A stretch of DNA of 64,000 nucleotides from Apium graveolens (Eukaryota > Streptophyta > Magnoliopsida > Apiales > Apiaceae), in contig NC_133653.1 in the NCBI RefSeq assembly GCF_009905375.1, forward strand, positions 58,292,673-58,356,672, in the 5' to 3' direction. Shown here in pieces: positions 552 to 61,951 of the stretch. Below the pieces are notes generated by a model. It saw nothing but the letters and a program-made list of their open reading frames with translations, searched no databases and was not told where the DNA came from. The position numbers and the translations under genes are program-made. Positions within the stretch are counted from its first letter, which is position 1, and every line of letters starts with the position of its first letter.

Positions 552-1478
552 GAACTTGTCCTCAGAATTTATGCAACTGACACTTAAACTGTTCATCTAA
601 AACAAGATTGATCACTACAGTAATAATCATCATTCATATGGAGTGTAAGTGTGTGCTTTAAGCTAAATATCAGACAAAGAGTAAAGTCTGATTCACTTCA
701 GTACATCTTAGAAATAAGGCATAACTAAGAACTTTGCTCAAAATCTATCATTAGTCTGAAGTCTACTATAGAATGAGTTCATGCATGAGTCCACCTCAAC
801 TGTTTTGTGCTCATTTTATGCATCTTTTGAAATTCCTTTTTACAGTGGCTTCTCAGTGTAAGTGAGTCACGACTGCGTATCAGAATTTATGCTGTTATCA
901 GAGTATTTCTCCAGTAATCAGAGAATGTGAAAAGTCACCAAGAAAAATTTATTTTGCTTTTCTAATGCATATTACTTAATACCAGCAATGCACTTGGGTC
1001 TTCCCTTCCACATATATTTTTCTCTAGATCTCAAAGGAGTACCTGATATTTATTTCTTTTCTTTACTTTTTCTTTTGATAAGTGAGGCTTATCAGCACTT
1101 AATACATCCATAAGATTTACCAACATCAGAACTTAACAGATAAGAAGCATTATTCTAGTTTTTGACTTAGTAATAAGATACACAAAGTAAACCTAACCAA
1201 GCTCAATATCAGAATTTGCTTGTTGTAAAAGATTTCCACATAAACAATTACTTCAAATATAAGATCTTTAGTATATTAGAGAGTACTAGGTCAGCATCTA
1301 GCACAATTATCCTCATTGGATTGAATAGTCACAGAAACATTCATATCACTATCCGAGTTTAGAAATTTACATCAGACAACAATCAACACTTAAGTAAATT
1401 TCAATTTAAGCACATATTACATAAAGATAGTAATATCTGTAAATACTGATCATAAAGTCTGATGTATCAGAACATAAA
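552..1478 (-). other. 3' noncoding region of minus Copia
   Basis: No gene is seen here. On the minus strand this follows the RNase H stop. It contains scattered copies of the family word in the forms TCAGAACTTA and TCAGAATTTA (for example near 558, 880, 1128, 1209 and 1468). A long pyrimidine stretch at about 1048-1075 reads as polypurine on the minus strand, but no LTR follows it. An extra ORF like that of the + Copia would be expected further along and is not present before the break at 551. Confidence 0.6.
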
Positions 1479-3191: not shown

Positions 3192-4440
3192 TCAACATTT
3201 TCTGATGCTCCCCCCTGAAATCATGCTATCTGATTTGGATCCTTCAGAATTTGAGTTTCCAGAATTATCAGAACTTGGCCCATCAGAACTTGATGAATCA
3301 GAACTTGAAGAGCCTGTTCTAGGTTCTGATGCTTCTTGAGATGTGGTTGGATCTTCAATATGCTCCCCCTGTACAGGTGCATTTTCCTTTGGCGTAGTCA
3401 CCACAGTTTCAATAACATCAGAGTTTAACCCATCAGAGTTTGCAGTATCAGGATTTAGACTATCAGAATTTACAGAATCAGAATTTAAAACTTCATTTTC
3501 AAATCTCAGCTGATCATTATCATTGAAATCTTCAAGTCCAGTAATCTTCTTATCATCAAAAGAGACATTGATAGATTCCATTACTACCCTTGTTCTTAAA
3601 TTGTAGACTCTGAAGGCTTTTGTGGAAAGTTGATATCCAACAAAAATTCCTTCACCAGCTTTTAGATCAAATTTGGATAGCTGTTCAGGATGAGTCTTAA
3701 GAACGAAACACTTGCATCCAAATACATGAAAGTACTTCAGATTTGGCTTATTTTTCTTCACCATCTCATATGGTGTCTTTCCATGCTTTTTGATAAGTGT
3801 TGCATTCTGAGTAAAATAAGCAGTTTGCACAGCTTCAGCCCAAAAGTAGGTTGGTAACTTTGCTTCATCAAGCATAGTTCTTGCAGCTTCAATAAGAGTT
3901 CTATTCTTTCTTTCAACAACTCCATTTTGCTGTGGAGTTCTAGGAGCAGAAAATTCCTTCTTTATTCCATGGTCTTTGCAGAACTCTTCCATGATCAAAT
4001 ACTTGAACTTGGTGCCATTATCACTTCTTATGATTTTCACAGTCTTTGACCAATTTATCCAGTTGTTTGACATGATTAATCAAGATAGATGCAGTTTCAC
4101 TTTTTGTGTGCAAGAAATACACCCATGTGTATCTGGTAAACTCATCTACTATGACCATAGCATATTTCTTCTTTGTAATAGACATGACATTCACTGGACC
4201 AAATAGATCAACATGTAGTAGGTGATAAGGCTCAAGAATTGAAGATTCAGTCTTGCTCTTGAATGAAAATTTTCTTTGTTTTGTCTTTTGACATGAATCA
4301 CAAAGGCCATCAGGAGAAAATACTGATTTTGGCAGTCCTCTCATAAGATTTTTCTTGACTAGTTCATTTATATTATTAAAATTTAAATGAGAGAGTTTCT
4401 TGTGTCAATCCCAACTTTCTTCAATTGATGCTCTGCTTAA
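3192..4440 (-). pseudogene. pol: Copia integrase (broken)
   Basis: Integrase inserts the DNA copy into the genome. A GAG-pre-integrase block with LCDSCQKTKQRKFSF is followed by the rve core with VDLFGPVNV, RSDNGTKFK and VVERKNRTLIEAART, which supply the D, D and E of the DDE site. The usual C-terminal region with VFGCKCFVLK follows. The last part (about 3220-3500) is rich in Ser and Asp (NSDS, SSSDG) and is built from repeats of the family word ATCAGAACTT / TCAGAATTTA read through the coding frame. The reading frame shifts near 4030-4070, so the core is split between two frames. Confidence 0.9.
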
Positions 4441-5599
4441 CAGACAAATTGCAGAACCATCAGAACTTGTTAAAAGCTTGCTTCATAAATGTTACCATGT
4501 CTGTATCCTTTCAGAACAACTTTGCATGTAGATTTGCTTATAACTTCACAATGTTCTTCAAAGAAATCCACATGATAACCTCTATCACAGATTTTACTAA
4601 CACTTAGCATATTGTGTTTATGTCCTGAGACTAGAGCTACTTTTTCAATGATGACATTCCCAAGATTGATATTGCCATATCCCAGAGTTTTTCCCATGTT
4701 GCCTTCTCCATAAGAAACTCCTGGGACAGCTTTCTCCACAAAGTCTGATAGCAGGGCTTTATTTCCAGTCATATGTCCTGAACATCCACTGTCCAGAACT
4801 AGGATATTTTTTCAGTTGCCCTGCAATCACAAAGACCACTAATGATTAGTTTTAAGGACCCAGACTTGTTTGGATCCTTCGGCCTTATTAAGTTTGTTAA
4901 CATTTGCAGCGGATTTAACATCAGAGTTTATGTTAACATTTTTCTTATCAGAATTTACAGTATCAGACTTTGCATCAGAACTTACACTAGAACGAATAAT
5001 GCTAACTTTCTTAAAAGAAGGTTTTATTTGATAATAATCATAGTACAAACTATGATATTCATTACAAGTGTAAATGGAATGCCATAAACTACCACAATGA
5101 AAACAAGGATTTTGTGGTTTAAACCTAACAGACTGACTCTTAACTCCTAATTTAGGAGGTAAAAAGTTGATATTCTTATTCTTCCTGCAAAAAGAAGCAA
5201 GATGGTTAGAGTTTCCACAGTTATAGCATTTCTTTCTGGGAGCATTAGGAACAGGCTTATAATTATTGCTTTTATTTACACCTTCCTTTCCATTCCTATT
5301 TTTCCTAGGTGGCTTTACCTTGTTTACATTCTTAATCTCTTTCAGCTTATACTTGATTGCTTCTTTGTCATTAAGCTTATGTTAACTTCAGCTGGTTTAT
5401 CCTGTTTTAATTTGTCAGAAGTTGACTCTGCCTTAACTTTTATCTCAATATCTTCCATCTTTTCAGAATCAGACTTTACAGTTTTAGCTACAAACTTAAC
5501 AGGATTTACCTTTGGCTTATTAGTCTGTTTAACAATAATTGGCTTAATTTGTTCAGTTCCTGTTTCACTTTTATCATCTCCATAACCTAAGCCCTCTTT
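4441..5599 (-). pseudogene. gag-pol: Copia Gag C-terminus and aspartic protease (broken)
   Basis: This continues the Gag-Pol polyprotein after the stop at about 5600. On the minus strand it encodes two further zinc knuckles, CYNCGNSNHLASFC (about 5230-5190) and CFHCGSLWHSIYTC (about 5110-5070), an Asn/Ser/Asp linker rich in the family word (4920-5000), and the retropepsin-like protease whose catalytic motif reads LDSGCSGHMTGN near 4770-4800. The block GNVIIEKVALVSGHKHNMLS follows. There are frameshifts near 5380 and just before the protease. With the knuckle in the upstream part this Gag has three CCHC motifs, more than the usual one or two. Confidence 0.82.
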
Positions 5600-7475: not shown

Positions 7476-7690
7476 CAGTTACAAGATAATCTTCTAATTG
7501 ATATCGAATATAATTCTGTATCCTAAAATATATCAATTAATTATCTTTTCTTCCAAGTCTTTTATTCTTCATAGAATTCTTCTCTATGCATATATCTTCT
7601 TATTTTAGTCTTGATCTTCTTTCCCTTTAAATCATCCGCCTTCCTTATCTGAAAGTCTTCTTAAGTCCTAATATTATCTCCTGATGAATA

Positions 7691-7795
7691 TCTTCTGATA
7701 TCTTAAGTTCTGATAACTTAAGTTCTGATATCTTAAGTTCTGACTTTAGTATAAGTACTGATTTCCAGTTAAGTCCTGATTTGTCCTGTTAGTCA
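7691..7795 (-). repeat. Cluster of family word AAGTTCTGAT in LTR
   Basis: TTAAGTTCTGATA-type units occur repeatedly (for example at 7704-7716, 7719-7731 and 7734-7744), with degenerate copies AGTACTGATT and AAGTCCTGATT after them. On the element's own strand they lie upstream of the TATA box. The same word, in the reverse orientation on the plus strand, fills the 3' noncoding part and parts of gag and pol. Confidence 0.75.
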
Positions 7796-7853
7796 AGATC
7801 TGAAAACTAAACACAAATCATTATTAGACATGACATCACAAATATATCTAACA

Positions 7854-8690
7854 TCATTTGTCTGTTAATTGCAAAACTGCCATGCCTACTTCCATATCCG
7901 TGCCACCTCATTTTCCCAACATAAATGCCATGCCTTATATGTCTATGAATGTTATGTCTACACATAATATGAATGCACAGTTTGCTAACATACCATTTGA
8001 ACCTAATCTTTATTATGCTGCATTTAGTATGCCACAAATACAATTTAGCATGCCTTACTGGAATAACATGTTTAGTAGTAGCATGCCATTTCCTGTTAAT
8101 TAAAATATGCATGATAATTTTGTTGTAATGAATGGTTTCAAAGGTTCAACTCAAATGACTAAGAATGAATCTGATATCCCCAAGTCAAATGAGATAAAGC
8201 CTAAGAAACAGAAAAAGAAAGCTAACAAGGCAGGACCCAAGAAAATTTGGTACCAAAATCAACTTGATTTGATTTTGATGTGTGCAGGGAAACAGAAAGA
8301 ATCTATGGTACTTGGATAGTGGTTGTTCAAGACACATGACTGGTGATTCTACCCTGCTCACAGAGTTCAAGGAGAAAGCTGGCCCAAGTATTACTTTTGG
8401 ATATGACAACAAGGGTTATACTGTGGGATATGGCTTGATTTCAAAAGACAATGTCATCATTGAGGAGGTTGCCTTAGTGGATGGTCTCAAGCACAATTTG
8501 TTGAGTATCAGCCATCTATGTGATAAAGGCAATTCAGTGAACTTCAACTCAAAAGCCTGTGTTATGACAAACATGAGAAACAACAAAGTGGTTCTCACTG
8601 GTGTGAGAAAAGGGAATGTGTACTTAGCTGACTTCAACTCATCAAATGCAGAATCTGTTACTTGTCTTCTCAGTAAAGCAAGTCAAGATG
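7854..8690 (+). pseudogene. gag-pol: Copia Gag C-terminal linker and protease (broken)
   Basis: The first 250 bases encode a Met/Pro/Asn-rich linker (SMNVMSTHN, MPYWNNMFSSSMPF), which in SIRE elements lies between the second zinc knuckle and the protease. A stop (TAA at 8101) and a frameshift near 8280 follow. The protease then reads NLWYLDSGCSRHMTGDS at about 8296-8346, with the catalytic Asp in DSG, and continues with GLISKDNVIIEEVALVDG and LKHNLLSISHLCDKG. The protease cuts the polyprotein. It is truncated on the left by the minus Copia insertion. Confidence 0.85.
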
Positions 8691-9740
8691 AAAGTTGGCT
8701 ACGACACAAGAAGCTATCCCATCTAAACTTCAAGACCATGAATGAACTTGTAAAGAAAGAACTGGTTAGAGGTATTACTCAAGTGGTGTTTTCTAAGGAT
8801 GGATTGTGTGATGCCTGCCAAAAAGGAAAGCATATCAAAGCATCATTCAGAAAGAAGCTTAATTCAACAATTGAAGAACGTTTGCAACTGCTACGCATGG
8901 ATTTGTTTGGACCAGTCAATGTGTTGTCCATCTCAAGAAAAAGATTTTGCCTAGTAATTGTAGATGATTTATCAAAGTTCTCTTGGACATATTTTCTAAA
9001 GTCTAAAGATGAGGCTAGTGAAATCATCATCAATCACATAAGGCAAGTCAATAATCATCCTGATTTCAAAGTTAGAAGAATCAGGAGTGATAATGGAACT
9101 AAGTTCAAGAATTCTGACATTAGAGCATTTTGTGAAGAAAATGGGATTTTGCATGAGTTTTCAGCAGCAAGAACTCCATAACAAAATGGAGTAGTAGAAA
9201 GGAAGAACAGATCATTTATTGAAGCTGCAAGGACAATGCTTGAAGAGTCTAAGTTACCAACATATTTTTGGGCTGAAGCTGTAAATATCGCATGCTACAC
9301 TCAGAATATTTCTCTGGTTAATCAAGTAAAATGCTTGACTCCCTATCAATTGTTCAAGAACAAGAAGCCAACTCTAAATTTTATTCATGTCTTTTGCTGC
9401 AAATGTTATATCTTGAGAAATCAAACTGATCAGAATGGGAAGTTTGATGCTAAAGCAGATGAAAGAATTTTTATTGGATATGTTGTTGGTAAAGCATATA
9501 GAGTCTACAATCTAAGAACCAACATTGTTGTGGAATCAATACATGTTGTGTTTGATGATAAAAAGATTGAAGGACTGCAAGATGGAGATTACCATGAGAG
9601 CCTCAAATTTGACAATGTGGAGATGGTTAGTGATGACAATGATGATAAAAGTGATCAAGAAACAGTATCAAAGGATAATGCAGAAAAATCCACTACCAAT
9701 GAAGCACAAAATTCAACATTTATCGAGTTGCATAATGCTT
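8691..9740 (+). pseudogene. pol: Copia integrase (broken)
   Basis: A GAG-pre-integrase block (SWLRHKKLSHLNF, LCDACQKGKHIKASF) leads into the rve core with MDLFGPVNVLSISRKRF, RRIRSDNGTKFKN and GVVERKNRSFIEAART. All three DDE residues are visible. A TAA at 9179-9181 falls inside the usually invariant PQQNGVVER block; relatives have Gln, so CAA to TAA is likely. The C-terminal region continues to about 9740 with KNKKPTLNFIHVFCCKCY and VVGKAYRVYNLRTN. It sits between the protease and the repeated linker, as in other Copia elements. Confidence 0.9.
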
Positions 9741-9846
9741 CATCCGTCGGGAGACAATCTACTTTATCCGTCGGGAGATAATCTGCTTTATCCGTTGGGA
9801 GACAACCAGCTTCATCCGTCGGTACTCAAAATTCACCATCCGTCGG
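9741..9846 (+). repeat. 24-bp coding tandem repeat with CCGTCGGG word, 5 copies
   Basis: ATCCGTCGG (one copy ATCCGTTGG) starts at 9742, 9766, 9790, 9814 and 9838, exactly 24 bp apart. In the integrase-RT linker frame this encodes an octapeptide of the SSVGRQST / LSVGR.. type. Since 24 is a multiple of 3, repeat gain or loss keeps the frame. A TAA at 9780-9782 interrupts the second unit. The word is the same one that is clustered in this element's LTR. Confidence 0.9.
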
Positions 9847-11652
9847 GTCATCAAAAGGAGCGGGAGGTCAGAATAGATCACTTACAGAAAGTTCCCCTTT
9901 CCCAAATCAAAGATCCATTAACTCAGGGGGAGCTTCTAATAATCTAAACTCAATCACACATCAAAACAATAATGAGGCCTCTTCATCTAGAGCTAATCTA
10001 CCTCAAGAAAGGAAATGGACAAAGGATCATCCCTTTGAGCTCGTCATTGATGATGTATCTTCTAGAGTTCAAACAAGGAGAGTAACTCAAGAAGAATGTC
10101 TATACACCAACTTTCTTTCTAAGGAAGAACCAAAGAAGGTAGAAGAAGCTTTGTTGGATCCTAATTGGATTTTAGCTATGCAGGAGGAGCTAAACCAATT
10201 TGAGAGGAATAAGATATGGAAGCTGGTACCCAAGCCTAAAGGAAAGAATCCAATAGACACCAAATGGGTATTCAGAAATAAGATGGATGAAAATGGCATA
10301 GTAGTCAAGAACAAAGCTAGATTGGTTGCTAAGGGCTATTGCCAACAAGAAGGGATAGATTTTGATGAAACATTTGGTCCTGTTGCAAGACTTGAAGCCA
10401 TCAGAATTTTCTTAGCCTATGCAGCCCATGCCAATTTCAAGGTCTATCATATGGATGTCAAAAGTGCCTTTCTGAATGGAGATTTGGAGGAGGAAGTCTA
10501 TGTCAGTCAGCCTCCTTGTTTTGAAGATCCAAATTTTCCAGAATATGTTTACTATCTTTTGAAAGCACTTTATGGACTGAAGCAAGCACCTAGAGCCTGG
10601 TATGACACTTTGTCAAAGTTTCTTTTAGAGAATCACTTCACTAGAGGTACTGTAGACAAAACCTTATTCTTTAGAAATGTTAATGGCTCTAGTATACTTG
10701 TTCAAATTTATGTAGATGACATTATTTTTGGCTCTACAGATGAAAAACTTTGCAAAAAGTTTGCCAAATTGATACAAAGTAAGTATGAAATGATTATGAT
10801 GGGAGAACTAACTTACATTCTTGGTTTGAAGTTAAGAAAGTTTGTGATAGAGTATTCATTAGTCAAACTAAATACATTTATGATCTTTTAAAGAAGTTTG
10901 ATCTAATGGATTGCACATCTGCAAAAACTCCCATGGCCACTGCAACTAAGCTTGAATTAAACACTACTTAAAAGTCTGTGGATATTTCAAGTTATAGGGG
11001 CATGGTTGGCTCACTTCTGTACTTAACAGCTAGTAGGCCAGATATAATGTTTGCTACATGTTTATGTGCTAGATTTCAGGCTGATCCTAGAGAATCTCAC
11101 TTAGTAGCTATTAAGAGAATTTTCAGATATCTCAAGGGAACACCAAAACTTGGCATTTGGTACCCTAGAGATTCTGGTTTTGATCTAACTGGTTATTCAG
11201 ATGCAGATTATGCAGGTTGTAGAATCGATAGAAAAAGTACAACAGGAACCTGTCAATTTCTAGGAAACAAGCTTGTGTCCTGGTTCAGTAAAAAGCAAAA
11301 TTCAGTTTCTACTTCTACAGCTGAAGCTGAATATATTGCTGCTGGAAATTGCTGTGCACAGATTTTGTGGATGAAAAACCAATTGCTAGACTATGGTTTG
11401 CAAGTTGAAAGGATTCCCATTTTCTGTGATAACACAAGTGCATTTGCCATCACTGAAAATCCAGTACAGCATTCAGGGACAAAGCACATAGACATCAAGT
11501 ACCACTTCATAAGGGAACATGTAATGAATGGTACTGTGGAACTACATTTTGTTCCAAGTGAAAAGAAGCTTGCAGATATATTTACCAAGCCACTAGATGA
11601 ATCCACCTTTTCAAGGTTGGTAAGTGAGTTAGGTATGCTAAATTACTCTTAA
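9847..11652 (+). pseudogene. pol: Copia reverse transcriptase and RNase H (broken)
   Basis: This is the RT and RNase H of the + Copia. Blocks: [69 protein letters not shown], the active site IYVDD followed by IIFGS (about 10708-10737), then a frameshift near 10835 and a TAA at 10969. RNase H (10978-11652) is an open stretch with SSYRGMVGSLLYLTASRPDI, STSTAEAEYIAAGNCCAQI and the terminal KLADIFTKPLDESTFSRL. The catalytic YVDD is kept. It is about as long as the family norm, with at least two breaks in this part. Confidence 0.92.
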
Positions 11653-12053
11653 ATCCTTATAGATTGTTTGCAAGTTGTGATGCAACCAGAAATTTAATTG
11701 ATTTTTTCAGTCATGGATGAAATTTTGGCTAAGTCAAAATTTACATCTCGACGGATGATCACTATCCATCAAGTTTGATCATCCGTCAGTATACTATTTG
11801 CTAATAAAATCAATTACTTTTCTGGAATATTTTATGACTCGACGGATAACTGATTTATCCTCATCCGTTGAATTGTCTTATTTTTAGCCGTTGATTCTCT
11901 TAACATTATCCATCGAGTATACTTACAGTTTGTAAGCATAACACGACGGATAATTGATGGAATTTTTACAGTTTATCTTTTAAACGGCTATTTTGGGCAA
12001 TTCTTATTGGTTACTTTATTTTAATTTATTATTTTCGACAGTTATTTTTGAGA
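11653..12053 (+). promoter_or_regulatory. Spacer with 7 copies of the CGACGGAT word before extra ORF
   Basis: There is no gene between the RNase H stop and the next promoter. Copies or near-copies of the family word occur in both orientations: CGACGGAT at 11749, 11840 and 11944; ATCCGTCA at 11781; ATCCGTTG at 11863; ATCCATC at 11764 and 11908. The cluster ends about 105 bp before a TATA box. The same word cluster lies upstream of the LTR TATA box, so it may be a shared upstream activating or silencing element (inference). Confidence 0.65.
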
Positions 12054-12173
12054 TATTATAAAAGCTAAATTCATTTTCATTACATTTCTTTTATCATTCT
12101 CAAATCCTCTACTCTAATTTCTTTCTTTCTCAAAAGCACTTACTCTCTCTCTGCAAGTTTTTACTCTCTAACA
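12054..12173 (+). promoter_or_regulatory. Internal TATA promoter and leader of extra ORF
   Basis: TATTATAAAAG (TATA core 12057-12063) lies 111-117 bases before the ATG at 12174. The stretch between is pyrimidine-rich (CTCTACTCTAATTTC, ACTTACTCTCTCTC), like the Y patches and leaders of plant mRNAs, and the ATG has the plant context AACAATGGC. No CAG splice acceptor is obvious next to the ATG. This suggests a separate mRNA for the extra ORF rather than splicing; it is inferred from sequence only. Confidence 0.55.
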
Positions 12174-15100
12174 ATGGCATCTGTCGTCAAGATAATGTCT
12201 CAAACTGGATTTATTTATGAGAAGAACAACTTCACTGCTCTTGTGAACGAGGGGATTCAACAGTCTGGTGACTACCACAAGATGATGGATTTTGTGAAGA
12301 ACTGCAAACTTAACTATGCCATGCTGGAATCACCCACCATCTACTGTGAGGTTGTTGAAGAGATGTGGACAACTGCTACATACAACTCAGCTGATAAGAC
12401 TATCACTTTCACTATTAAAGGTAAGGAATTTTATGTTAATAGTTACATTGGTAAAGCATGTTTCAAGAATCCTGATAATACTGTAACTTCACCACACACA
12501 GACACTGGCATTATTAACATGCTTAACTCCATGAACTATGCACTCTCTACTTCTAAATTAAGTGAAATTAGGAGGTTGGGTCTTAGAAAGGAATGAAGTT
12601 ATCTGTGTGATGTAGTTACCAAGGTCTTTTCTGGTAAAATCAGTAATTTTGATTCTGTCAATATCTCTATGCTTAACATGCTTTACATGCTTGTTACCTG
12701 ATAAATTTTTCAACTTTAGTGATCTTATCATAATTGAGTTGGGGTTTAAGTTAGGGGAGTTAAATAAGAGGGGTAGAAATGTTTAATATGCTAGATTTTT
12801 CATGATGCTTGCTAACCACCTCTCTGAGGAAATTGTGCTTGAGAACCCTACCAACAAATTAGATTGTTGGGTTAAAGAGAGAAGGATTATTGCAGATTTG
12901 AACAGGGCAAACCATCACAAAGAGGTGCCACTCTTCTATTTTCCTGTTATGGAGGCACCTCTGGTAAGTGAGGTAAGTTCAGCTGCCCCTACTCTTCCAG
13001 CCTCACAAATTTCTTTGCCTTATAGTGTAGCCCTGGCAACTGTGTCAATGACCCAACAGTTGCCTACCCAAGCTACCAAATCCAAAATTTCTAAATCCAA
13101 GTCAAATAAAGCCCCTTCTGGCATCTCTCAAAAGATGCCAGTTGTAAAATCTACCAAACCAAAAGAGGGGAGTGTGAAGGTGGGTAAGAAAGGTGAGGGA
13201 CATGGTGAACATCAAAGAAACCCTAAGGATAAGGTTGGGGAGGTGAGTGTTTCCCAGCTTAGCCACACTGCAGTTTCCTAAAAAACTGCAGTGCTTAATA
13301 AGGACATAAGCTCATTGCTAGTTGCATCCTCCCAAAAGGATGTGACTATTGAACAAAGCTCTCAGCCAAGAGCACAGGCCAAAAGGGTAAGAGACACAAG
13401 CTCACCCCAAACCTATACTAGAAAGAAGAAACCAAAAACCCTTGGGGATGCACAGGGTTCACACATTGTGCAAACTGGTGCTGAAGACACAGTCACTGCA
13501 CCTTCTCAAAGTCAGTTTGATGTCGCTCCAATAAATGTGGAGTCACAGCCAAAATCTTTAGTTATAGAAGCACCTCAAACACCAAATTCTCCCACAAACT
13601 CTCTGGATGTGGATATGATCAACACATCAATTCTTGATTCCCCTTCTTTAACTCTGTTGGGGAAGCCAAAATCTAGTGCAAGTGAGCATCATCTTTTGGA
13701 TGATTTGTTGGCTCACTTGCCAATTCTTTTAGGAACTGTTGAGACATCTGTGCTAAAATTCTCATCAATCTGCACAGAGTCCACAATAGTTTCCACTCCA
13801 AACACATTCATTTCTACTCACTCGATGGATATTGTTCATCCGTCGAGTAGTGATTGTATCCCGACGGATAAGCTTAACAGCAGTTATCCGTCAGATAGTC
13901 AAACTGCTAACCCGACGAATATCCCTTATCTGTCGAGTGTCTCTGCACAACTTCAAATTTCATCAATTATCTCAAGTGCAGAAGACTTAGTGGTAGTACA
14001 ATCACTCCTAGAATTGAGGGAAGGGAGTGAACTGAGTGAGAGTCTGGGTTGCTCCCAGGAAAAAGGAGAGGTAAAGAATGAAAATATGCAATCCAGTTCT
14101 TTAGGATTGGCAAAAGAGAGTGTGGGGAGTCCCACCTTAGATAGTGAAGGTGAGGGTGTGAGGGTGGTGAGCCAAGGTGAGACCTTGATGCAAGAAAATA
14201 GAGAAAATGAGAGAAAAGAAGGTATTGAAGATATAAGGATGGATGTTATTCTAAGTGAGTTAATGAATTTCCAGGATGCAGACAGGGAGGGACTATCTCA
14301 GCAAACTCAAGCTGTTATAGATTCCACTTCCTTAGATGCTGAGACATTTACTCACCCTGTTCCAGCCTACCAACTTCTAGTTGGACAGGGCAATGACAAT
14401 GCAAAAAGGATGCTAAACTTGGTGCACACCATACAGTCCATGCAAAGAGGTAAGGATGCCATCACAGCTTTGCCTTCTACAGCTGGTGATGTTGATTATG
14501 AGACTGGTGGTTCAGAAGAATTCTTTGGAGGTGAAGGTGGAGATAGTGAAGAAGAGCCATTGGACATAGGGGAGAAATAGGCTCTAGTTCAAGATCATGC
14601 ATGCCATCTTGGGTATTTTCAAAGCATTGTGATGAACACTACTTCAAGACAACCCTGATTCAACTCATAAATCAGACAAATTATGCTCTTCAAACCACCA
14701 CAAATGCCAGCACCAAAAAGCTCCTTCAAGCACATCTTGCTTCTCTGCAACTATAAAAAATCCAAGGTTTTCAACATGCTCGAGATGTCAACACTATCAA
14801 AGGTGATATTGATGAGATGAAAAAGGCCATTTCTGACAAGATGGACTCTAAACTTTCAGAAGCTACAATGCTTGACATTAAGAGACAACTCAGGAAAAAT
14901 TCTGATCTTGCCACAAAGATAGATGCCTTGGATATAAGAATGATAACAATGGAATCATCTCTTACAGCAATTCATCTACACTAAGCTCAACAAACAGACT
15001 TGCTTCAGAAACTAGTGGCTGCACAAACTTCCTCCTCCACTCAGCTTGATGATAACAAAAAGGGGGAGAAAGAGAGTTCTAGGGGTGAGGGGGAGAAAAA

Positions 15101-16725
15101 AGTGCTCAGCATTCAAGTTAGCAAAGTAATTGCGCCTACAATTACTATCTCAAAGCCACTAGCTAAGGACATTATTGATCTGATAAATGAAGCAGCAGCC
15201 AATATAAGAGCAGCTAAAAAAAAGCAGTTGAATCCAATCAACTGGGAGAAAATTGATGAGGATATTCAAAAGAAGTTTGGGCTAGCATAGAAGCCAGAAA
15301 AGTCAGCCATTCATCACTCTCAAGTCAGGCAAATCTCTATTGAGCATGAACTATCTGAAAAGAGGACATCCATCCTGCATCAAATCTCCAAAGGCTAAAG
15401 TACTTTTGAAGCCAAGGGTGAACTATCCAAAATCATCACTAAAGAACCCTTTGGATATAGTGTATGAGACACCAAAGCCTGATGAGAAGAAACTGTTTTC
15501 CAGATCCATTTCCTTCTACAAGGATCCAGCTGATTCAACTTTGAAAAGGAGAATTGCTAAAGTTTTCAGAAATGGTAAAGAAATTTGTGTGGTGGCTGGA
15601 CATCCTCAATTTGTTGAAGCAAAGAGAGAAGAAAAGGCAAGAAAAGAAGAAAGTTACTCTAGATGCTAAAAAGGTTAAACAAAAGAAAGAGCAAGCTGCT
15701 ATCTTGGCCAAGCTACAAGCTGTGAAACCAACACAACAAATTCCTGCTCAGCCATCTGAAATCACTGAATCTCAAGATCCAAAGAAGCAAGTTGAACCAC
15801 AACAGAAGAAATCTCACAGATACAAGGAATTGGCCAAAAGAACCAAAAGGAAATTGAACTTTGTTGGTAAGGAATTGGAGGATCAGTTTCCCAAGGAATC
15901 CATTCCAACTACAACTCAAGCATCAAAACCCTTAGTTGTATTTGAAGACATTAAGGTGGTGGATCCTTACAGGAACATTCATGGTGAACCTATTGTGCCT
16001 AAGGATGAACCAATAGACTGGGAAAGTCTACCAATTCCTGACTTCAATTTGCCAATCCTTAACAAGCCAAAGAGAACAAAGTCAAGAGCAGTCAAGAAAG
16101 TGAAGCTGTCACCTCTCAAATCCAAATCTCTAACCAAAGCTCAATCCAAAGTTAACAAGGGAGATTACATGTACTTATGTGACATCAAGGAATTCTCTGA
16201 TCTAAACCTCTATTTAGATGAACTGAAAGAAGTTAGAGGGATTAATGCCTACAGGAATCTACCTGAAAGGTTAGTTTTCAAGTACAAGGGAGGAAAGTAG
16301 ATTCAATGGCCACTTCACAGGATCCTTCAAGAAAGCCAATCCGTGCTGATAAAGGTTTATTCATCATTCAAGAAGAACTTTGGATTCAATGTAACTGCAA
16401 GAAGACTTGTTCTAAAGAAGATTGAAGAAATGAAGAGTATTAGAGCTAAAGAAGCACTCCCAAAGACTCTACCTATTCCTTACATAGGGAGTAGAGTGCA
16501 TCTAAGGCCCTACTGGCTGATGGAGTTCATTGATGACAAATGAGTTAGAAGATTTTTCAGATTAGAAGACCAATTGAGCATCTCTAGCAATGAGACTCTT
16601 TTGGAAATGCAAGAAAAGCTAAATCTCTCGGAATCTGATGAATTGGAATTCCACAGACAGCTCCAAAATCAGATAAAAGAAAACAACAGAAAACTTGGAA
16701 AGAGATCCAGATCTTCAAGGAATTA
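12174..16725 (+). pseudogene. Large extra ORF after pol (env position), unknown function, broken
   Basis: This is about 1,500 codons of decayed coding sequence between pol and the 3' LTR, where SIRE elements carry an extra 'env-like' ORF. Parts: a folded-looking N-terminus (12174-12596; MASVVKIMSQTGF...), a damaged stretch (12597-12801), a Ser/Pro/Gln-rich middle (12802-14580), a coiled-coil-like segment (about 14780-14980), a Lys/Glu-rich basic region (15000-16080) and a conserved-looking C-terminus (KGDYMYLCDIKEFSDLNLY, KKNFGFNVTARRLVLKKIEE) ending in basic residues at 16725. Clear stops are at 13279, 14578 and 16298, with several frameshifts. I see no signal peptide or membrane helix, so an envelope role is not supported. 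I do not recognise a named domain. Confidence 0.72.
13821..13939 (+). repeat. CGACGGAT word cluster inside extra ORF coding sequence
   Basis: Six copies or near-copies lie within the Ser/Pro/Thr-rich part of the extra ORF: CTCGATGGAT (13821), CATCCGTCGAG (13838), CCGACGGATAA (13861), TTATCCGTCAG (13885), CCGACGAAT (13912) and ATCTGTCGAG (13928). Both orientations occur. The reading frame stays open through them. Confidence 0.75.
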
Positions 16726-16850
16726 GATTAATCTGCTCAGGCTAGAGGAGCACCCTGAAAATTACTGTGAGCTAATCTTTGTGTATTTTTGGGCTGTTTT
16801 GTTATCATCAAGTTTCTCTTAATTTATGGCTACAATTCCAGTAGACATAA

Positions 16851-16862
16851 ATTGGGGGAGAT
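16851..16862 (+). other. Polypurine tract of + Copia
   Basis: ATTGGGGGAGAT lies immediately before the LTR start TGTTGTGG at 16863. It is the plus-strand priming site and has the usual plant Copia form GGGGGAGATTGTTG. It fixes the left LTR boundary. Confidence 0.85.
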
Positions 16863-16942
16863 TGTTGTGGATATGTTGTGAACTTGATGATTTCATTAAC
16901 AAAATACCTTAGTAGATTTTACTTAGTGAAAAATATAGCACT

Positions 16943-17063
16943 CGACGGATAAGGAATATAGTCCCGACGGATGACTCAATATAGTCTCGACGGATGACTC
17001 AATATAGTCCCGACGGATGACTCAATATAGTCCCGACGGATGATGATTAATTATCCATCGAGT
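16943..17063 (+). repeat. 23-bp tandem repeats with CGACGGAT word in LTR
   Basis: CGACGGAT occurs at 16943, 16965, 16988, 17011 and 17034 (spacing 22, 23, 23 and 23 bp). The intervening unit is close to ATGACTCAATATAGTC. It is closed by an inverted copy ATCCATCGAG near 17053. More copies follow at about 17242-17320 (CCGACGGATAA, CTCGACGGATGATC, CCGGCGGATAATC). The cluster lies 500-600 bp upstream of the TATA box. Confidence 0.88.
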
Positions 17064-17542
17064 GAGTAGCTTGTGTAATAATGAGTCTGTAGCACATTTC
17101 TGCATACACCTTGTTTATATTCTGTAGTAGCACTCAAGTCATGTTGACTTTAATTAGAAATGCATAATAGGTTGATTAATTGTACATAGATGATGTCTTG
17201 TAATTCTGCATAAATGAAATGAAGTCAAGTGCCAGATAGCTACCCGACGGATAAACAACAGTTCCACTCGACGGATGATCAACAAGGCAACCTGACAGAT
17301 GATCATGTACCCGGCGGATAATCAATTCAAACATCTGTTGACAGTGACAACACAGTCACATGCGTCGAGTGTATGCAAAAGGAATGTGGAAGCCTATTCA
17401 ACTAGGTTTTAGAGAACAAAGAAGCATTGCTATTTCCATGATATTATGAAGATATTCAAAGATGCTGGAATAGAGTAATGAAGCAGCATAGTATTAGACT
17501 TGATAGGTTTTGTTTTATTATCTTGTCTTATTACTTTGTAAT

Positions 17543-17563
17543 CTTGGTGATATATAAACCAAG
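17543..17563 (+). promoter_or_regulatory. LTR TATA box inside inverted repeat
   Basis: CTTGGT, GATATATAA, ACCAAG: a TATA box in a 6-bp perfect inverted repeat, the same as in the third Copia LTR. The likely transcription start is 25-35 bases downstream (inferred). Confidence 0.65.
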
Positions 17564-17923
17564 AAGTAGCAGATAGAACAACAAGAATAAGACTAAGAAC
17601 ATTATCTCAGAGAAAGAATTATAAGCTGTTTTTTTAGCATTTCTCTGTAAACTTAGTTGTTCATATTTGTAAGCAGCTGTGAGCTAATCTTGCTACACAG
17701 AGTTCTCTTGAAATAAGTGGATACATTCAAATCCACCATAAAGTTTTTAAAGAGTTATGTTTTTAATTACTTGTGTTTTGATTTTACTAACTTCTTATTC
17801 CGCACTTTGCAAATCAAACACGTATATATTATTAAGATATAACATTTTATATTTTTGAAAAAGGTTCAAGAATTCCATTCAACCCCCCTTCTGTAATTCT
17901 TGTTGCATTGTTAGGGACTAACA

Positions 17924-28970: not shown

Positions 28971-29928
28971 ACCGGCCTCTCCCAACTCAGCTCTCCACGT
29001 TGCCCTGCTCGCCTGCGTCATGTCACCAGCATATGCCTGAGGAGCTGACCTTCCACCTGGCAGATGGTCATAAGAATATCCAAGCCCCTTAAGATCGGGC
29101 TTCCCACCATACCACTCCATCATATTTAATAGCGTCGAACTATCAATTGGGGCACTCGGTAGCTGCAGCTGCTCATGTGCGGGACAGTGAATGCCAACCG
29201 TCATACAAATCTTCGTCACAATGGACGCATAGGGTATAGAACCCGTAGTACTCCGTCGAAGAAACCTCAAAGTACCTTGATAGATAATCATCCCAAGATC
29301 CATATAGTGTCCTTAGAGAATCCCTCACAATAGACGTGCACGCTCCAGAGTAACATTATGCATGTGAGAAGATGGCATTATGTTAGCACAAATAAAAGAA
29401 TTCCATGCACGTGCAAACCTGTTCATGCACGAGGCAGGAAAAGTGGCATATTCGTTCATGCCCTTCTTGAACTTCCAATGAGTCTCGGGAACACACAAGG
29501 TAGCAACAATCAAATCCAAGTTAAACTCCTCCGGAGTCTTCTCATTCCAATTCTCCTATTCTGGCCTCCACTCGGGCTGCTCAATCGCCCTACGAATAAC
29601 CTCAGCACTATACTCCATCGTCATCCCCCTAACCACCGTGAAACCGTTCTTCTCCGCCTTAGGATTCGTATAGAACTCACACACCACACCCATGCACAAC
29701 AACGGGTGTCTCACAAAAAGTAAGCCAGCCAATCTCCAAGATCATCCCCAACAACTTACCATCTTTCCCAGATGGCAGAAAACCACGCTCCTTGGCTACA
29801 GGCTTCGAAAGTAGCCTCGTATACTCCGTTTCAGCCTCGGAAGTTGAAAACTTGGGCCTCACACCACCCGCACTCGAAGAATCAGTGGTGATGCTACTAA
29901 CTTGGGTTCGTTGTCTTTTTGGTGCCAT

Positions 29929-30293
29929 TGAGATTGAATAAGCTTGAGAGAATTAAGGTTTGCAAGAGAGATTTGTGTGTTTGAGATTTGAGAAGTGATG
30001 GAGGAGTTGGTGTATAAGTGTATGTATATATATGAGAATGGGAGAGAATTAGTTATGAAAAAGGAGTGGGAATTGATTGTGGGAATAATGGGAATAATGG
30101 GAATAATGGGTTTGATTTGGAGAGGGAAATTTGGGATACGGAAGAGTAAAAATCGGGTTTGAATTGATTTTTTATTGAAGTCCCCAATTTTCTGTTATTT
30201 TGCTGTCTTATATGTTTTTTCGACTTCAGTGACCCAGCGCGGCCGACCCGCCTGGCAGCGCGGGTGCTCCGTGCTTCTGGAAAACCAACGCGG
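29929..30293 (-). promoter_or_regulatory. Internal promoter of Athila extra ORF, copy A
   Basis: On the minus strand a TATATATA box (30025-30033) lies 97-105 bases before the ATG at 29928, with a pyrimidine-rich leader. Copy B keeps the same spacing (52571-52580 to 52474). Upstream lies a GC-rich patch (30235-30293) with CAGCGCGG-type words, continued after the Tekay-like insertion at 38984-39045. The same words occur upstream of the LTR TATA box (45770-45850). Promoter use is inferred. Confidence 0.55.
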
Positions 30294-38903: not shown

Positions 38904-38983
38904 TAATTATTATACAGGTTGTACAGGTCGGGTGATTAGCTAGTAACCCCCAGACTTATACCCCGGGTCTGGAGGGCGTTACA
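38417..38983 (+). repeat. Tekay-like 3' LTR remnant
   Basis: It matches 33252-33773 of the 5' LTR (ATAACCAAATTA, then GGTTCATTAACTTA, and the shared end GGAGGGCGTTACA). The first about 2,960 bp of the LTR are missing. A run of about 50 bp of (AT)n at 38850-38898 is absent from the 5' LTR and must have arisen after insertion. Confidence 0.9.
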
Positions 38984-39050
38984 CGCGGGTGCCGTGCTAC
39001 TGACTTTTCAGCGCGGCCGCCTCGCTTCTCAACGCGACCGCACCGTTGTC
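38984..39050 (-). promoter_or_regulatory. GC-rich Athila word patch, copy A (right part)
   Basis: After the target repeat, GTGCCGTGCTACTG and CAGCGCGGCCGC continue the patch begun at 30235-30293. It corresponds to 52770-52845 in copy B, which is not interrupted. Confidence 0.6.
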
Positions 39051-44653: not shown

Positions 44654-47071
44654 TGTTAGGGCTAGAACACGCGCTAATATTCACGTAATTATACGTGATC
44701 ACAAGTAATATAGAATTAATTCTAGTTCGTTCCCACAAAGACTAGTTTAAGTTAATTTTAATAAATGTACTTATGCAACAATGGTATAGTTATTATCCAA
44801 TGCTAAGACGAATAACAAATAGAGATTTTTAACTAAAATTGACTAAGAGATTATAATAAGGAATATTAACTAAGAGAATTAAAGAGAGTTGAATACTATA
44901 TAATACAAACATGGGATTCTAACTTCATTAAATACTTCATTAAATAGCCTTTTCGTTCTTTACCTTAGCATGCAATGGTGATGACACTAATTAGATAATA
45001 CGGAACTGATAAATGCCAACTTTTATAGCATGAATACCATACTACCAGATATCCACAAAAGAGATAGAAGCTGAATAGACACCAATTATATTGAGACCCT
45101 ATATGTCTATATAATTTGACAACATAACGGTTTAACGCATAAGTTATCTATCATGATTATATAGGGCACATAAGATGGTTAGAATTACCCATGAATCATG
45201 CATATTAAATACATGAACCTATGCTAGCATGCCATGTTCTAAACCCCTAAATTCACTTTCACTTCATTAGAGATTAACACACTATCTTATAAGTTTGAGA
45301 CGCTCATAAGATAAATAAGCACAACTAATACTAGGTTATCATACAACCACCACACACTAAGGCATCGAAACACATTAACTAAAGAAATTCATAAATAAAT
45401 CCACTATAACCCCACGATAATGAGTAGCCCATAATCAGACTCATCATCAATGTGGATTCCGATATAAGCATGGTATAATAAACGTAGTCTTTATACTAAA
45501 TAAATAATGAACAAGTATGAAACAAGAGTATAGGTTCATAAGCAAGAAAATAACATCTTAATTACAACTTAAAACAAAGAATTACAAGATTAAACTAGAT
45601 CATCTTCGCCTTGGTTGAATTGTGCTCTACGGACTTCTTACACCTTCTCCTTAAGCTCTGGTACGTCTTGTTATCAAAAACGAACATAAGTTATGTTTAT
45701 ATAGCATCCCATGCAGATTAGAAGTCTTCTGGATCAAAATCAGAGTAGAAACATGATTCTTTGAATTCGATCCGGCACGGCCGCGCGCTTCATTAGCGCG
45801 GGCGCGCTGTACTTCTGCAATCCTTGCGCGGCCGCGCGCTGGCTCTCTGGAAAAATTTCTGACTTCTTCTTTTCTTGCTGGTTGAGTTGATCTTTTCACG
45901 AGCTTTTATTCTAGACCATCCTTACACCATATTAGCATCAAAACAATGCCAAATCACCCGAATTCCTGATAAATGCCTGAAATGCAAAATACTACAAAAA
46001 CACGTTAAAAACACCAACAACTTGAGTACAAAACACCAATTCAAAACTTTACGGAGCGCTATAACATGACATAAATGCCACTCAATAACAACTCAACTTA
46101 TAAACCAGAAACGTGTGTGTGTGTGCAAAGGCTTACAGATATACTATTGCAACTAGATCAGTGATCATGACTTACTACTCATGAAGGCAATCTCAAGGTT
46201 ATAAATAGAATAAAAGCTAAACTCAAAATGATTGAAAACACTTCAATTCTTATATAGGAGTTATTAAATGGATTCATGCTTTTATTCATAACATTAAAAT
46301 AACAAAACTATGCTTATTTGATCGTGCAATGAGTTAGGTCCACAAAAGACACATACAATAATACCCATGTAGCGAGCATTAGGAAGTGGATCCCAGACTA
46401 TAAAAGCCTTAGGTCACTAGGCACAAAGTACCCTAAGAACTTAATAACTCGAGTACTAAAAAGCCCACTCGTGATCAATTATGCATAAACACATTTTTTT
46501 TTCTTTCTTTTTTGTTTTTTTTTCACATGATTTCTGAACGAGTGCGTTTCGCTCCATCTCGCTCAACCCTAGACTACTCATTAAAAATAAGCCGGCTACT
46601 AGCCATTTGACATTTATCCATAACAATTAGCAATGAAATCCAATTTTTTTTCCAATTTCTAAATTTCCATGTTATTTTATCATTAAGAGAATATCCTAAA
46701 TTAATATATACAAGTGACTAAACCTCAACAAACAAATAAACCTCGACCATGATCTAGCACTCAAGCAACCTATAAGACTTAGTGAAATTTATTGCTTCTA
46801 GTACGCAAATCAACTTAATAAGACTTAAAATCACTAAACATGACCTCACCACACTTGCATCAATGTCACAAATCAATTGGAAAAATTAACTAAAGGATCA
46901 TGTTATAATGCAAATGCATGAAACTATATGCACCATACTAATAACAAATATGCAACATACTAATAACAATCATAAAAACAAAATAAAATAAAATAAAACT
47001 ACATGATAAATATGCAACTATATGGACTAAACTATCATAAATATGCAAACTATATAAGACACACACAAACA
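44654..47071 (-). repeat. Central Athila LTR shared by copies A and B
   Basis: About 2,418 bp. On the minus strand it starts TGTTTGTGTGTG right after the polypurine tract of copy B and ends CCCTAACA before the primer site of copy A. It is the 3' LTR of B and the 5' LTR of A. The TATA box is CTATATAAAC at 45695-45704 (minus), with a GC-rich word patch at about 45770-45850 upstream. Its low-coordinate part matches 58454-59148 and its high-coordinate part matches 17924-18901. No gene is seen. The outer boundary is inferred from end symmetry. Confidence 0.75.
45695..45850 (-). promoter_or_regulatory. Athila LTR TATA box and GC-rich word patch
   Basis: TATA box on the minus strand at 45695-45704. 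Upstream (higher coordinates) lies a GC-rich block with GCACGGCCGCGCGCTTC, TTAGCGCGGGCGCGCTGT and TGCGCGGCCGCGCGCTGG. The word TTAGCGCGGGCGCGC followed by the GT(A/G)CT(T/A)CTG pattern recurs at 52818-52844 ahead of the extra ORF promoter. Confidence 0.6.
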
Positions 47072-50570: not shown

Positions 50571-52474
50571 ACAACCAAACTCCATCCATAAAATACTACA
50601 ACAGCCCCAATACCTCAAGTTCTCCAATTTATATTATTCTCAAACATGAACTAAAACTATACTTAAGTTCATTAAACAATAATCTAAGATTTACAACTCC
50701 AAACTCATTACAAAACCAACCACACTCTAAGTCTACAAGAATCATGCTTCTCATGAACCATACCAAACACAAAAACTCTAAATATACAAAAGTAGGGCTA
50801 GGGTATGAGAATATACCTTCCTTGGTGAGTAAAAGTAACTAAGGAGCTTGGAATCACCCTTGAAAGTCCTTACCAAAGCTTAATCTAACCAAAAACACAA
50901 GATCAAACAATTTAAATTTCTTGAAAACACTATTCACTCTCTTCTTAAATGATTTATTGAAAGAGATTGTGAAGGAATTTGGAGCTTAAACTCTTAGGAT
51001 AGCTATAACTAATCATAAGAAACCTTGGATAATTACCTTGCAATTTAACAATGCTTGGATCTTGGATTTTGGATTTTCTTCTTTGAAAAAAAGAAGAAGC
51101 CGAGAGCTTCTTGATGGAAATGAAGTGTTTTGTGTTTTTTGATGTTATGATTTGTTTTTGGCTTGGTTGATCCACTTTGTTTATTAATTAGATTATTACC
51201 ATGGTAAATTTTGTGTGGTTCACAATCAACCAACAACACACTTCTTTTTGTCATGCTTAGGTCATCATTCTTATGTCATCTTCCCATGCTTGTCCTCTTC
51301 TTATTGGTTTGATGACATCATCATCCCTAACCTCCTTGATTAACTCCTAATTGCTTGCCTAATGATCGCTGATCTGTTATACGGTTCGCTTAACTTTCGT
51401 TCTCGTTTGAGGGATCATACCCGGGATCTTATTACATGGGTTTCCTTAACCTTTCTCAATACATTATATTCCTTTTTATGATCCTCTCTTATAATCCTTG
51501 AATTTAAATATTTTTTTATCCTGTTACCTTATACTCAATTCTTTCGGTATCGGGTGGATTTTCGGGGAAAATCAAAGTGTTCGAATTTGGATTCTGACGA
51601 TCTTTATATACACTTATATACCATGTAGAGTACTAATAAGATCTCAGAATAACAATAGAAGAACCCCTACATAGTGTGGCATGAAAAGTTTTCTTATTCA
51701 GCATAATCAGCAAAAACACTATTCATAAGGGTTACAAAAAGTTCAAAATTTTGGGGTTATTACAATGGACGCATAGGGAGTGGAACCCTTAGTACTGCCT
51801 CGCAGAAACCTCAAGATACCCTGATAAATCACCATCTCGAGATCTACATAATCTCCCTCAAGAATGCCCCACAATAACTGTGCACGCTCCAGAGTAACGT
51901 CATGCATGTGAGAAGATGGCATGATGTTGGCATAAATAAAAGAATTTCATGCACGTGCAAACCTGTTCATACACGAGGCCGGGAAAGTGGCATACTCGTT
52001 CGTGCACTTCTTGAACTTCCAATTAGTCTTTGACACACACAACGTAGCAACGATTAAATCCAAGTCAAAATCATCACCGGTCTTCGCATTCCAATCCTCC
52101 TACTCCGGCTGTCTCTCGGGCTGATTTATCACCCTATGAATAACCTCTGCACTGTAATCCACAGTCAACCCCCTCACCACAGTAAAATTGTTATTGTCCG
52201 CCTTTGCATTCGCGTAAAACTCGCGAACCACACTCATAGGTACCGCAACGGGTTCCTCACAAAAAACAATCCACCCCATCTCCATAATCATCTCCAACAA
52301 CTTACCATCCCTTCCCTATGGAATAAAACCTTGCTCCTTGGCTATGCACTTCGAAAACAGCCTCGCATACTCCGCCTCATCCTCCAGAGTTGAAAACCTA
52401 GGCCTCACACCACCCACACTCGAAGAATCGATAGTGGTGCTGCTAACTTGGGTTCGTTGTCTTTTAGGTGCCAT

Positions 52475-52993
52475 TGAAAGTGAATATGTTTGAGAGAATA
52501 AAGGTGTATTAGAGAGATTTGTGTGTTGAGAATTTGAGAAGTGATAGAGAAGTTTGTGTATAATTGTGTGTATATATAGGAATTTGGGAGAGAATTAGTT
52601 ATGGAAAAGAAGTGGGAATTGATTATAGGAATAATGGGAGTAATGGGGGCGATTGAAATTGATTTGGAGAGGGAAATATGGAAGTGGGAGAGTAAAATTC
52701 GGTTGGGAATTGATTTGAAGTTCAAATTCCCGATTTTCTGCCTTTATTTTTTTCAGAACCAGGGAGCCAGTGCGGCCGCCTCGCCTGGCAGTGCAGGCGC
52801 GCTACACTTATTAAAAAATTAGCGCGGGCGCGCCGTGCTACTGTAGTTGGCATTGAATTTTTTTTCTTTTTCTTATTTTTTTGTGTTTTTCTCCTTGTTT
52901 TCTTCTTCCTTTATCTACTAATGTACAACAAACTTGGATTTCCTCCCAAGAAGCGCTTGGTTTACGTCGTTAGCTTGACGTAGAATCCCAAGA
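52475..52993 (-). promoter_or_regulatory. Spacer and internal promoter of extra ORF, copy B
   Basis: No gene. On the minus strand: pol stop at 52994, a T/C-rich tract, a GC-rich patch (52770-52845, with AGTGCGGCCGCC, CAGTGCAGGCGCGC, TTAGCGCGGGCGCGCC), then CCTATATATACAC (TATA at 52571-52580), a CT-rich leader and the ATG at 52474. TATA-to-ATG spacing (97-106 bases) equals that in copy A. A promoter for a separate mRNA is inferred. Confidence 0.55.
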
Positions 52994-59148: not shown

Positions 59149-59169
59149 CACTACAAGAAATATGCCCAT

Positions 59170-59640: not shown

Positions 59641-59891
59641 TGTAAAATGCTACTGCCTCTTTTTTTTTCTCATTCTTTCCCCTCTTCCTTTTATGCAAAA
59701 ACACATCATATGTAAAATGACATAACGACTAACTCCGACAACATTCATCAATGTAAGAACTCCATTCTACTCTCATATATTTAATTTGTATGCATGCATC
59801 TATGTGATTTAAATTTAAATTCATTACATGTTTAACTTATTATGTGTGCATACATATATAGCTTATTTGTAATTTATTTTTACATTTGTAG

Positions 59892-60757: not shown

Positions 60758-60845
60758 AGTGTGCCCTATAACGTAGTCTCTCGTGGCGGTCCTATAATTA
60801 GGGGTTAAATATCGTTGTAATGGATTATGAATGTTTGTAGGATAA
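60758..60845. other. Unassigned 88 bp between CACTA and Copia
   Basis: It starts TGAGTGTGCCCTATAACG and fits neither TNP2 nor the Copia LTR. It may be a fragment of another element or the flank into which the Copia inserted. Nothing else is seen. Confidence 0.4.
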
Positions 60846-61131
60846 TGTTAGGAATATGTGTATTAGTTTGATGATAAGTTAAACAAAACACTTAAGTAGA
60901 AATCTAGTGTTTGTAGCCTCAACGGATAAGATCATCTTGGCTATCCGTTGAAGGAGTAGCTTTACTTAGCAATAAGTTTAGTATTGTAGCACATTTCATT
61001 CTCTGTATTCAAGCTGCAATTCTTAGATGTTGTAGGAAATTATCAGTCATGTTGACTACTAATGATATGCAAATAGGAGGGTCAACTGTAAATATTTCAT
61101 GCCTTGTAATTTTGTATAAGTGAAGAAGTAT

Positions 61132-61330
61132 CAACGGATATTGAAGACCTTCAACGGATAAGAAACAAAGCTTCAACGGATGTCTCTAATGCTTCAACGG
61201 ATAATATCCATCAACGGATAAGTGTTTCAACAGATAAAAGACTTCAACTAATAATGCATCAACGGATAAAAGCTTCAACGGATAAAGCCTCAACGGATAA
61301 GGCATCAACGGATGAAAGCTTCAATGGATG
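61132..61330 (+). repeat. Dense cluster of TCAACGGAT word in LTR
   Basis: About 12 copies or near-copies in 200 bp, for example at 61132, 61151, 61173, 61193, 61210, 61257, 61272, 61289 and 61304, mostly followed by AA or GA. Spacing is irregular (15-24 bp), unlike the 23-bp ladder of the + Copia. The core AACGG is also the core of plant MYB3R (MSA) sites; this is noted only as a lead. The cluster lies about 260-450 bp upstream of the TATA box. Confidence 0.85.
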
Positions 61331-61577
61331 CTTAGTTCATTAGCAGTTGATAGTGACAATTCACAAGCTGACAGAGGCACATGGGTTGACAGAGACAAAC
61401 TGGAATGTGGAAGCCTCTAGGAGGAATCAAGAAAATGCAGCATTTCCATTCTGATGCAAACAAGGAAGTATTCAAAGATCTACAGCCAAGCCTAAATTGC
61501 ATTTGATAGAGAAATGAAGAAGAAACATGTGAAGAATCTTTTTAATTATATTTTACAGTTTTGTCTTCACTTGTAAA

Positions 61578-61598
61578 CTTGGTGATATATAAACCAAG
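61578..61598 (+). promoter_or_regulatory. LTR TATA box inside inverted repeat
   Basis: CTTGGT, GATATATAA, ACCAAG, identical to the + Copia LTR arrangement at 17543. Confidence 0.65.
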
Positions 61599-61951
61599 TA
61601 GCAGCTAGTAATTAGATATGAATTTTCAAGAGCTGTTTAGAAATATCCAGAGAGAAAATCATCTAGTTTGTACTAGGAAGCAGCTGTGATTTAATTCTTT
61701 GAATCACAGATTTTCTGAAATAACACATCTCTGGTGGAACAACAAATCCACCAGAAAAGTTTTTAAGTTCTTTGTGTTCTTTACATTTGTGTTTGAATAT
61801 ATATCTGTCTGTATCAGCTTCAAGCAATTCACACACATTTGTTCACTTAAATACTTAGCCTTAGAAACTGCTCAAAACTTGAAAAAGTTTTGAGATTTAC
61901 ATTCAACCCCCCTTCTGTAAATCTCATTGTTAGTCCACTTGGAATAACAAT

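Follow-up and report, generated by a model that had tools for sequence, protein, structure and literature searches.

The available part of Bousios et al. 2010 (PMC2829016) describes family-specific boxes (RM boxes) in Sirevirus retrotransposons, which lie in the unique 3' (U3) region of the long terminal repeat (LTR) before the TATA box and cluster again before the envelope-like gene (ENV). In that part the authors favoured an internal promoter before ENV, which they cite as hypothesised earlier by Peterson-Burch and Voytas, and the motifs given there are palindromic with a CGG-CCG core, the signature being missing in 1 of 13. The portion of PMC3414828 available to us describes the Sirevirus ENV-like gene as of unknown origin and possibly not a true envelope gene. 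Co-evolution of motif and VANC anti-silencing protein has been reported for VANDAL transposons (PMC5735166 and PMC10398659, both in the parts available). Here we analysed a stretch of 64,000 nucleotides from Apium graveolens (contig NC_133653.1, positions 58,292,673 to 58,356,672; hereafter the window), in which a plus-strand Copia element, S1, carries the short word CGACGGAT in its LTR and again at 11653-12173, just before an extra, env-like open reading frame (ORF). The reading that we favour, and regard as reasonably probable, is that the Sirevirus env-like gene encodes a VANC-like DNA-binding protein which reads the word of its own family for anti-silencing.

S1 is a Sirevirus. Its pol is of Copia type (Pfam RVT_2 at 4.1e-68, with integrase (rve) and gag_pre-integrs domains), and a polyC-rich signal lies close to the 3' end of the LTR, CAACCCCCCTTCT in S1 and CAACCCCCCTTCTG in its relative S2. 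Near the LTR start, TGGGGGAG matches at 7 of 8 bases the polypurine tract octamer AGGGGGAG, whose position just before the 3' LTR belongs to the Sirevirus definition in the available part of PMC2829016. Repeats of one motif both in U3 and ahead of ENV, a further mark of the group, were also found in S1, and this plan is already known for Sireviruses (PMC2829016, same part). The S1 LTR ends (16863-17923) were read by eye; the word counts used 16867-17922, a few bases off.

Counted on both strands and compared with a local Markov model, 11653-12173 holds three exact copies of CGACGGAT (0.01 expected) and six with at most one mismatch (0.17 expected), and U3 at 16867-17540 holds seven (0.01 expected) and ten (0.32 expected), respectively. 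These counts, far above expectation, bear out the clusters that a preliminary description, made from the letters alone, had placed before the LTR TATA box and at 11749-11951. Its list of sites was incomplete, missing two clusters within coding sequence, one in the linker between integrase and reverse transcriptase (IN-RT) and one midway through the extra ORF; the five other S1 segments counted held a total of one word with at most one mismatch. The word had also been proposed as a switch for genome-length and extra-ORF transcripts together. Since words also lie within protein-coding linkers, a promoter role alone would not account for them.

The recurrence was also recovered blindly. When the top over-represented word of the LTR was searched for and then counted internally, it recurred in S1 and in the two further Sireviruses of the window, S2 (60848 onward, plus strand) and S3 (minus strand, 7860 to about 560). 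In the same test, the top LTR word of a Gypsy control element (33-39 kb) had no exact internal copy and four copies with at most one mismatch, compared with 1.1 expected, and the top LTR words of the Athila elements in the window showed no significant internal recurrence. When coding clusters were recoded synonymously, the count with at most one mismatch was reached by 0 of 2000 recodings at each of the four clusters tested, and the exact count of the S1 mid-ORF cluster by 1 of 2000. The S1 coding words stand in differing codon phases and on both strands, and are therefore not caused by a peptide in S1; most S3 coding words stand in one shared codon phase.

The sister families carry other words at matching sites, CAACGGAT in S2 and ATCAGAACTT in S3. 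At six S2 sites (both U3s, gag end, IN-RT linker, pre-ORF and mid-ORF), of which those beyond the window end were read in separate pieces of adjoining sequence, there are 39 exact copies of CAACGGAT and none of CGACGGAT. Every one of the 39 S2 words that depart from CGACGGAT by no more than one mismatch is CAACGGAT, the same single change, whereas the non-exact copies in S1 are spread over seven forms. S1', an S1-like element lying left of the window, whose LTRs share about 74% identity with the S1 LTR over the aligned parts, retains CGACGGAT at the five sites checked (4-7 exact copies each, with 0-2 of CAACGGAT). In S3, ATCAGAACTT was found at the seven sites checked, with 0 to 3 exact copies and 3 to 11 with at most two mismatches. 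The preliminary description had suggested testing whether the clusters at the two sites change together among family members; between families, the words of S1, S2 and S3 differ in concert at all sites examined. The S1 and S2 words contain CGG and occur in part as inverted pairs. Compared with the RM boxes, the S1 words are alike in lying in U3 before the TATA box and before the extra ORF, but words here also occupy coding sequence in the IN-RT linker, at the gag end and mid-ORF, the S2 word departs from that of S1 at all sites together, the S3 word is non-palindromic and lacks the CGG-CCG core, and the ORF has a candidate fold.

We then searched the 3.33 Gb genome of A. graveolens itself, where the 150 scored matches are a lower bound, and took 30 S1 copies. 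Among the matches listed, 28 of the 30 carry at least three words before the ORF and 23 carry at least three in the stretch 1500-1920 nt past the ORF start; in a subset of 20, at least three words occur in the 3' LTR piece of 15 copies and at least two in the IN-RT piece of 15. Each of ten S2-like copies, sampled from a separate search that listed at least 150 matches, has 6-7 pre-ORF and 5-6 mid-ORF copies of CAACGGAT and no CGACGGAT. The S1 and S2 patterns of cluster placement thus recur at the same places in the sampled family members. In many of the copies listed by this second search the S2-like extra ORF is open over 1534-1546 amino acids, a sign that a very large family may have been active recently.

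Upstream of the S1 extra ORF, the internal TATA box at 12057, the CT-rich leader and AACAATGGC at 12174 are all present as earlier described, as is the LTR TATA box at 17551. The internal TATA box with its leader is the most conserved (0.974) of four stretches compared in the 30 S1 copies, and the leader is free of ATG in all 30. TATAWA stands at -108 in S2, -116 in S1' and -76 in S3. It is missing upstream in the ten S2-like copies, all of which have a TATA tetramer at -114 (TATAAG in the three inspected) and two of which have an ATG in the final 100 nt before the start. By chance, TATAWAW would fall 70-130 nt upstream of a random position in 5-6% of cases. These sequence features are consistent with transcription of the Sirevirus extra ORF from the internal TATA box. 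The Sirevirus leaders contain 1-4 AG, and given these few, a spliced leader is possible.

The predicted model of a relative of the S1 extra-ORF protein matches the fold of VANC21 (structure 9lnj) with moderate scores. A first model, of poor quality and with weak fold matches, had been set aside. The preliminary description had speculated that the ORF product binds the word, and this idea gains support from the VANC21 fold match together with the concerted difference of the words. As with VANC of VANDAL, the protein is encoded by the element, short repeated motifs are private to each family and differ between relatives together with the protein (three families here), and the predicted fold agrees. 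The host, however, is an LTR retrotransposon rather than a VANDAL (Mutator-like) element, so that we would say "works like" and not "is"; in addition, no sequence similarity to VANC was detectable in the profile search made, some of the words are coding, and anti-silencing is only proposed here.

Based on these likenesses, we infer a model in which the VANC-like extra-ORF protein would bind the private word of its element in a sequence-specific manner. With words in U3, ahead of the extra ORF and within coding linkers that tolerate them, the protein could mark the element along its length, and the bound protein might relieve silencing and so restore both the LTR promoter and the extra ORF's own internal promoter. 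Word and protein differ together between families, so that each family would recognise itself. One result weighs against the words being more than chance or coding: the word columns are no better conserved than other pre-ORF columns among the 30 S1 copies. A search of PDB sequences with the Sirevirus extra-ORF profile did not list 9lnj at E<=10. PDB sequence searches with the Sirevirus and Athila profiles gave no useful match, the S1 extra-ORF pieces had no Pfam match at 1e-3, and scans of viral contigs with the extra ORF and the reverse transcriptase found no relative. A 40%-identical reverse transcriptase, from a single contig scan match in an alphaproteobacterial metagenome-assembled genome, was not used. 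Separately, a 1044-bp contig in a record named Klebsiella pneumoniae carries a fragment of an extra ORF of plant type and is probably a contamination.

The VANC-like reading gives the env-like gene and the boxes one directly testable role. If it is true, sequence-specific anti-silencing would extend beyond DNA transposons and include a major group of LTR retrotransposons in plants. Coding sequence would then both encode a protein and carry binding sites. PMC12844716 asks whether Tork and Athila encode extra ORFs modulating methylation; beyond that question, nothing in the literature searched, which did not cover bioRxiv, connected the extra genes of Sireviruses or Athila with proteins of VANC type.

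The same two-site plan had been proposed for the Athila elements of the window, copies A and B, as an unrelated lineage. The plan holds well in the Sireviruses and less well in Athila. GC-rich boxes are present before the Athila LTR TATA box and before the extra ORF, but a long word common to them is less well supported. In copy B a 16-mer is common to the pre-ORF and LTR boxes, a length reached by 0 of 2000 shuffles; for the two box sides of copy A, the common words are a 9-mer and a 10-mer, which 228 and 104 of 2000 shuffles reach and which are not significant. In 10 further copies, drawn from 150 listed matches, the pre-ORF box has at least 15 CpG per 120 bp in 9 and TATAWA occurs in 9, and the longest word common to pre-ORF region and LTR has p<0.05 in only 4, although some LTR pieces lacked a GC box, which may have been missed there. 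Common words were no longer in same-copy than in cross-copy pairs (9.2 vs 9.0). The equal spacing from TATA box to extra ORF was confirmed at 106 nt in both copies; it is not independent evidence, because A and B are one family (segments 80-90% identical). As a separate observation, the LTR at 44660-46580, between copies B and A, appears common to both in a tandem arrangement, and the copy B extra ORF resumes at 47677 past an insertion.

By its profile match, we assign the Athila extra ORF to Pfam Transposase_32, a family annotated as putative plant transposon protein: against PF20167 (cut-off 45 bits), two of four Athila ORF pieces match, with 47.3 and 44.6 bits, and two are unmatched. In comparison, 7 of 60 Sirevirus relatives reached E<=0.01, the best at 3.5e-5 and 24.2 bits, well below the same cut-off, and alignment of the Sirevirus and Athila extra-ORF alignments with hhalign was negative (prob 0.8, register mismatched). 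These weak matches suggest that the two extra ORFs may both be members of a single protein superfamily, and because of this the two lineages may or may not have arrived at the plan independently. More tentatively, and with more doubt than confidence, we can imagine one module, comprising a DNA-binding protein of VANC/Transposase_32 fold, a promoter belonging to it and a private word that recurs along the element, even in coding linkers, that was taken up by Copia Sireviruses, Gypsy Athila and VANDAL transposons; it might be the true identity of plant env-like genes and give very large families a selective escape from silencing.

Several other explanations need to be considered. The words could be sites for host transcription factors at the LTR and internal promoters, with the extra ORF unrelated. 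They do precede a TATA box at both sites, and AACGG resembles a MYB core. A comparison of Sirevirus motifs with plant cis-elements gave mainly stress-related sites (PMC2829016, available part). We nevertheless think this unlikely, considering that the IN-RT linker, gag-end and mid-ORF words lie away from promoters, that sister families differ in the word at all sites together, and that the modelled fold of the extra ORF matches VANC21. The extra ORF could also be a true gene of envelope or movement type, with splicing or readthrough as its route of expression and the word incidental. The historical naming, the AG in the Sirevirus leaders, and earlier predictions of splice acceptors in Athila and BAGY2 and of stop suppression in SIRE1 (cited in the available part of PMC2829016) speak for it. 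The predicted fold, however, had no credible match to viral structures (best prob 0.13 among the best 50 listed), the TATA box is conserved in 30 of 30 S1 copies, and Athila copy B has no AG between its TATA box and the extra-ORF start, so we give this explanation very little credence.

The words might instead act at the RNA level, where they could form hairpins or bind Gag and so serve packaging, dimerisation or the control of translation. This would fit three segments that fold well below shuffles, namely the S1 mid-ORF segment at 13815-13940 (z -6.2), the S2 gag end at 63630-63710 (z -6.7) and the S1 pre-ORF segment (z -3.7); z is -3.2 and -2.2 in two segments of the S1 U3. The S1 IN-RT linker (z -0.7) and the S2 U3 (z +0.3) do not fold in this way, so RNA structure was rejected as a feature common to all clusters, and the words are present in both orientations; we judge a general RNA role highly improbable. 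The coding clusters at 13815-13940 and 63630-63710 contain inverted word pairs and fold into RNA hairpins of unusual stability. A neutral origin by tandem duplication or template switching, without function, is disfavoured and seems to us quite improbable. Regular spacings of 24 nt, 15 nt and 22-23 nt do show local duplication, and the lack of excess conservation of the word columns within S1 would be expected from it. On the contrary, the flanks of different clusters agree at 0.38, 0.34 and 0.30, barely above the 0.27 predicted from composition, and therefore the clusters were not copied as blocks; moreover, S1' keeps its word despite its diverged LTR, and the one change is common to all 39 S2 words.

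Table 1. Coordinates of the features in the window.
Feature	Position	Strand	Remarks
S1 internal region	8230..16862	+	RVT_2, rve, gag_pre-integrs; 5' part broken by S3 insertion
S1 coding IN-RT linker cluster	9742..9845	+	4 exact, 5 with <=1 mismatch; 24-nt spacing
S1 pre-extra-ORF word cluster	11749..11951	+	3 exact, 6 with <=1 mismatch
Internal TATA box	12057..12063	+	TATAWA 113-124 nt before start in 30/30 S1 copies
Pyrimidine-rich leader without ATG	12064..12173	+	
First open piece of S1 extra ORF	12174..12596	+	putative VANC-fold domain, by homology to modelled relative
S1 mid-extra-ORF cluster	13823..13935	+	2 exact, 6 with <=1 mismatch; strands alternating
S1 3' LTR	16863..17923	+	TGTTG...TAACA ends; GGGGGAG tract adjoining upstream; CAACCCCCCTTCT; TATA 17551
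S1 U3 word cluster before TATA 17551	16943..17367	+	7 exact, 10 with <=1 mismatch
S2 5' LTR (ends approximate)	60848..61950	+	TATA 61586
S2 U3 cluster of CAACGGAT	60920..61329	+	11 exact, 13 with <=1 mismatch
S2 cluster at coding end of gag	63637..63701	+	4 exact CAACGGAT
S3 U3 cluster of ATCAGAACTT	7663..7804	-	2 exact, 8 with <=2 mismatches; TATA 7469
S3 post-gag words	4920..4983	-	4 with <=2 mismatches
S3 coding IN-RT linker words	3197..3486	-	3 exact, 11 with <=2 mismatches; mostly 15-nt spacing
S3 words between RNase H and S3 extra ORF	879..1475	-	9 with <=2 mismatches
Athila LTR GC-rich box	45764..45850	-	before TATA 45703
Athila copy B GC-rich box before extra ORF	52770..52845	-	16-mer common with LTR box; TATA 52578
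Athila copy B extra ORF, part	51950..52474	-	Transposase_32 (by profile); broken by stops
GC-rich box of Athila copy A on upstream side of nested insertion	38965..39050	-	
GC-rich box of Athila copy A on downstream side of insertion	30225..30285	-	TATA 30032
Athila copy A extra ORF, part	29328..29927	-	Transposase_32 (by profile); broken by stops

The Sireviruses are nested, in that S1' sits within S3 (on the side of window positions 1-545) and S3 within S1, so that two word classes are found in one nest. Finally, an element at 59152-60850 (limits by eye), which we take to be CACTA-like, shows repeated CGACGGAA and CGTCGTAA near its end, resembling but distinct from the Sirevirus word.
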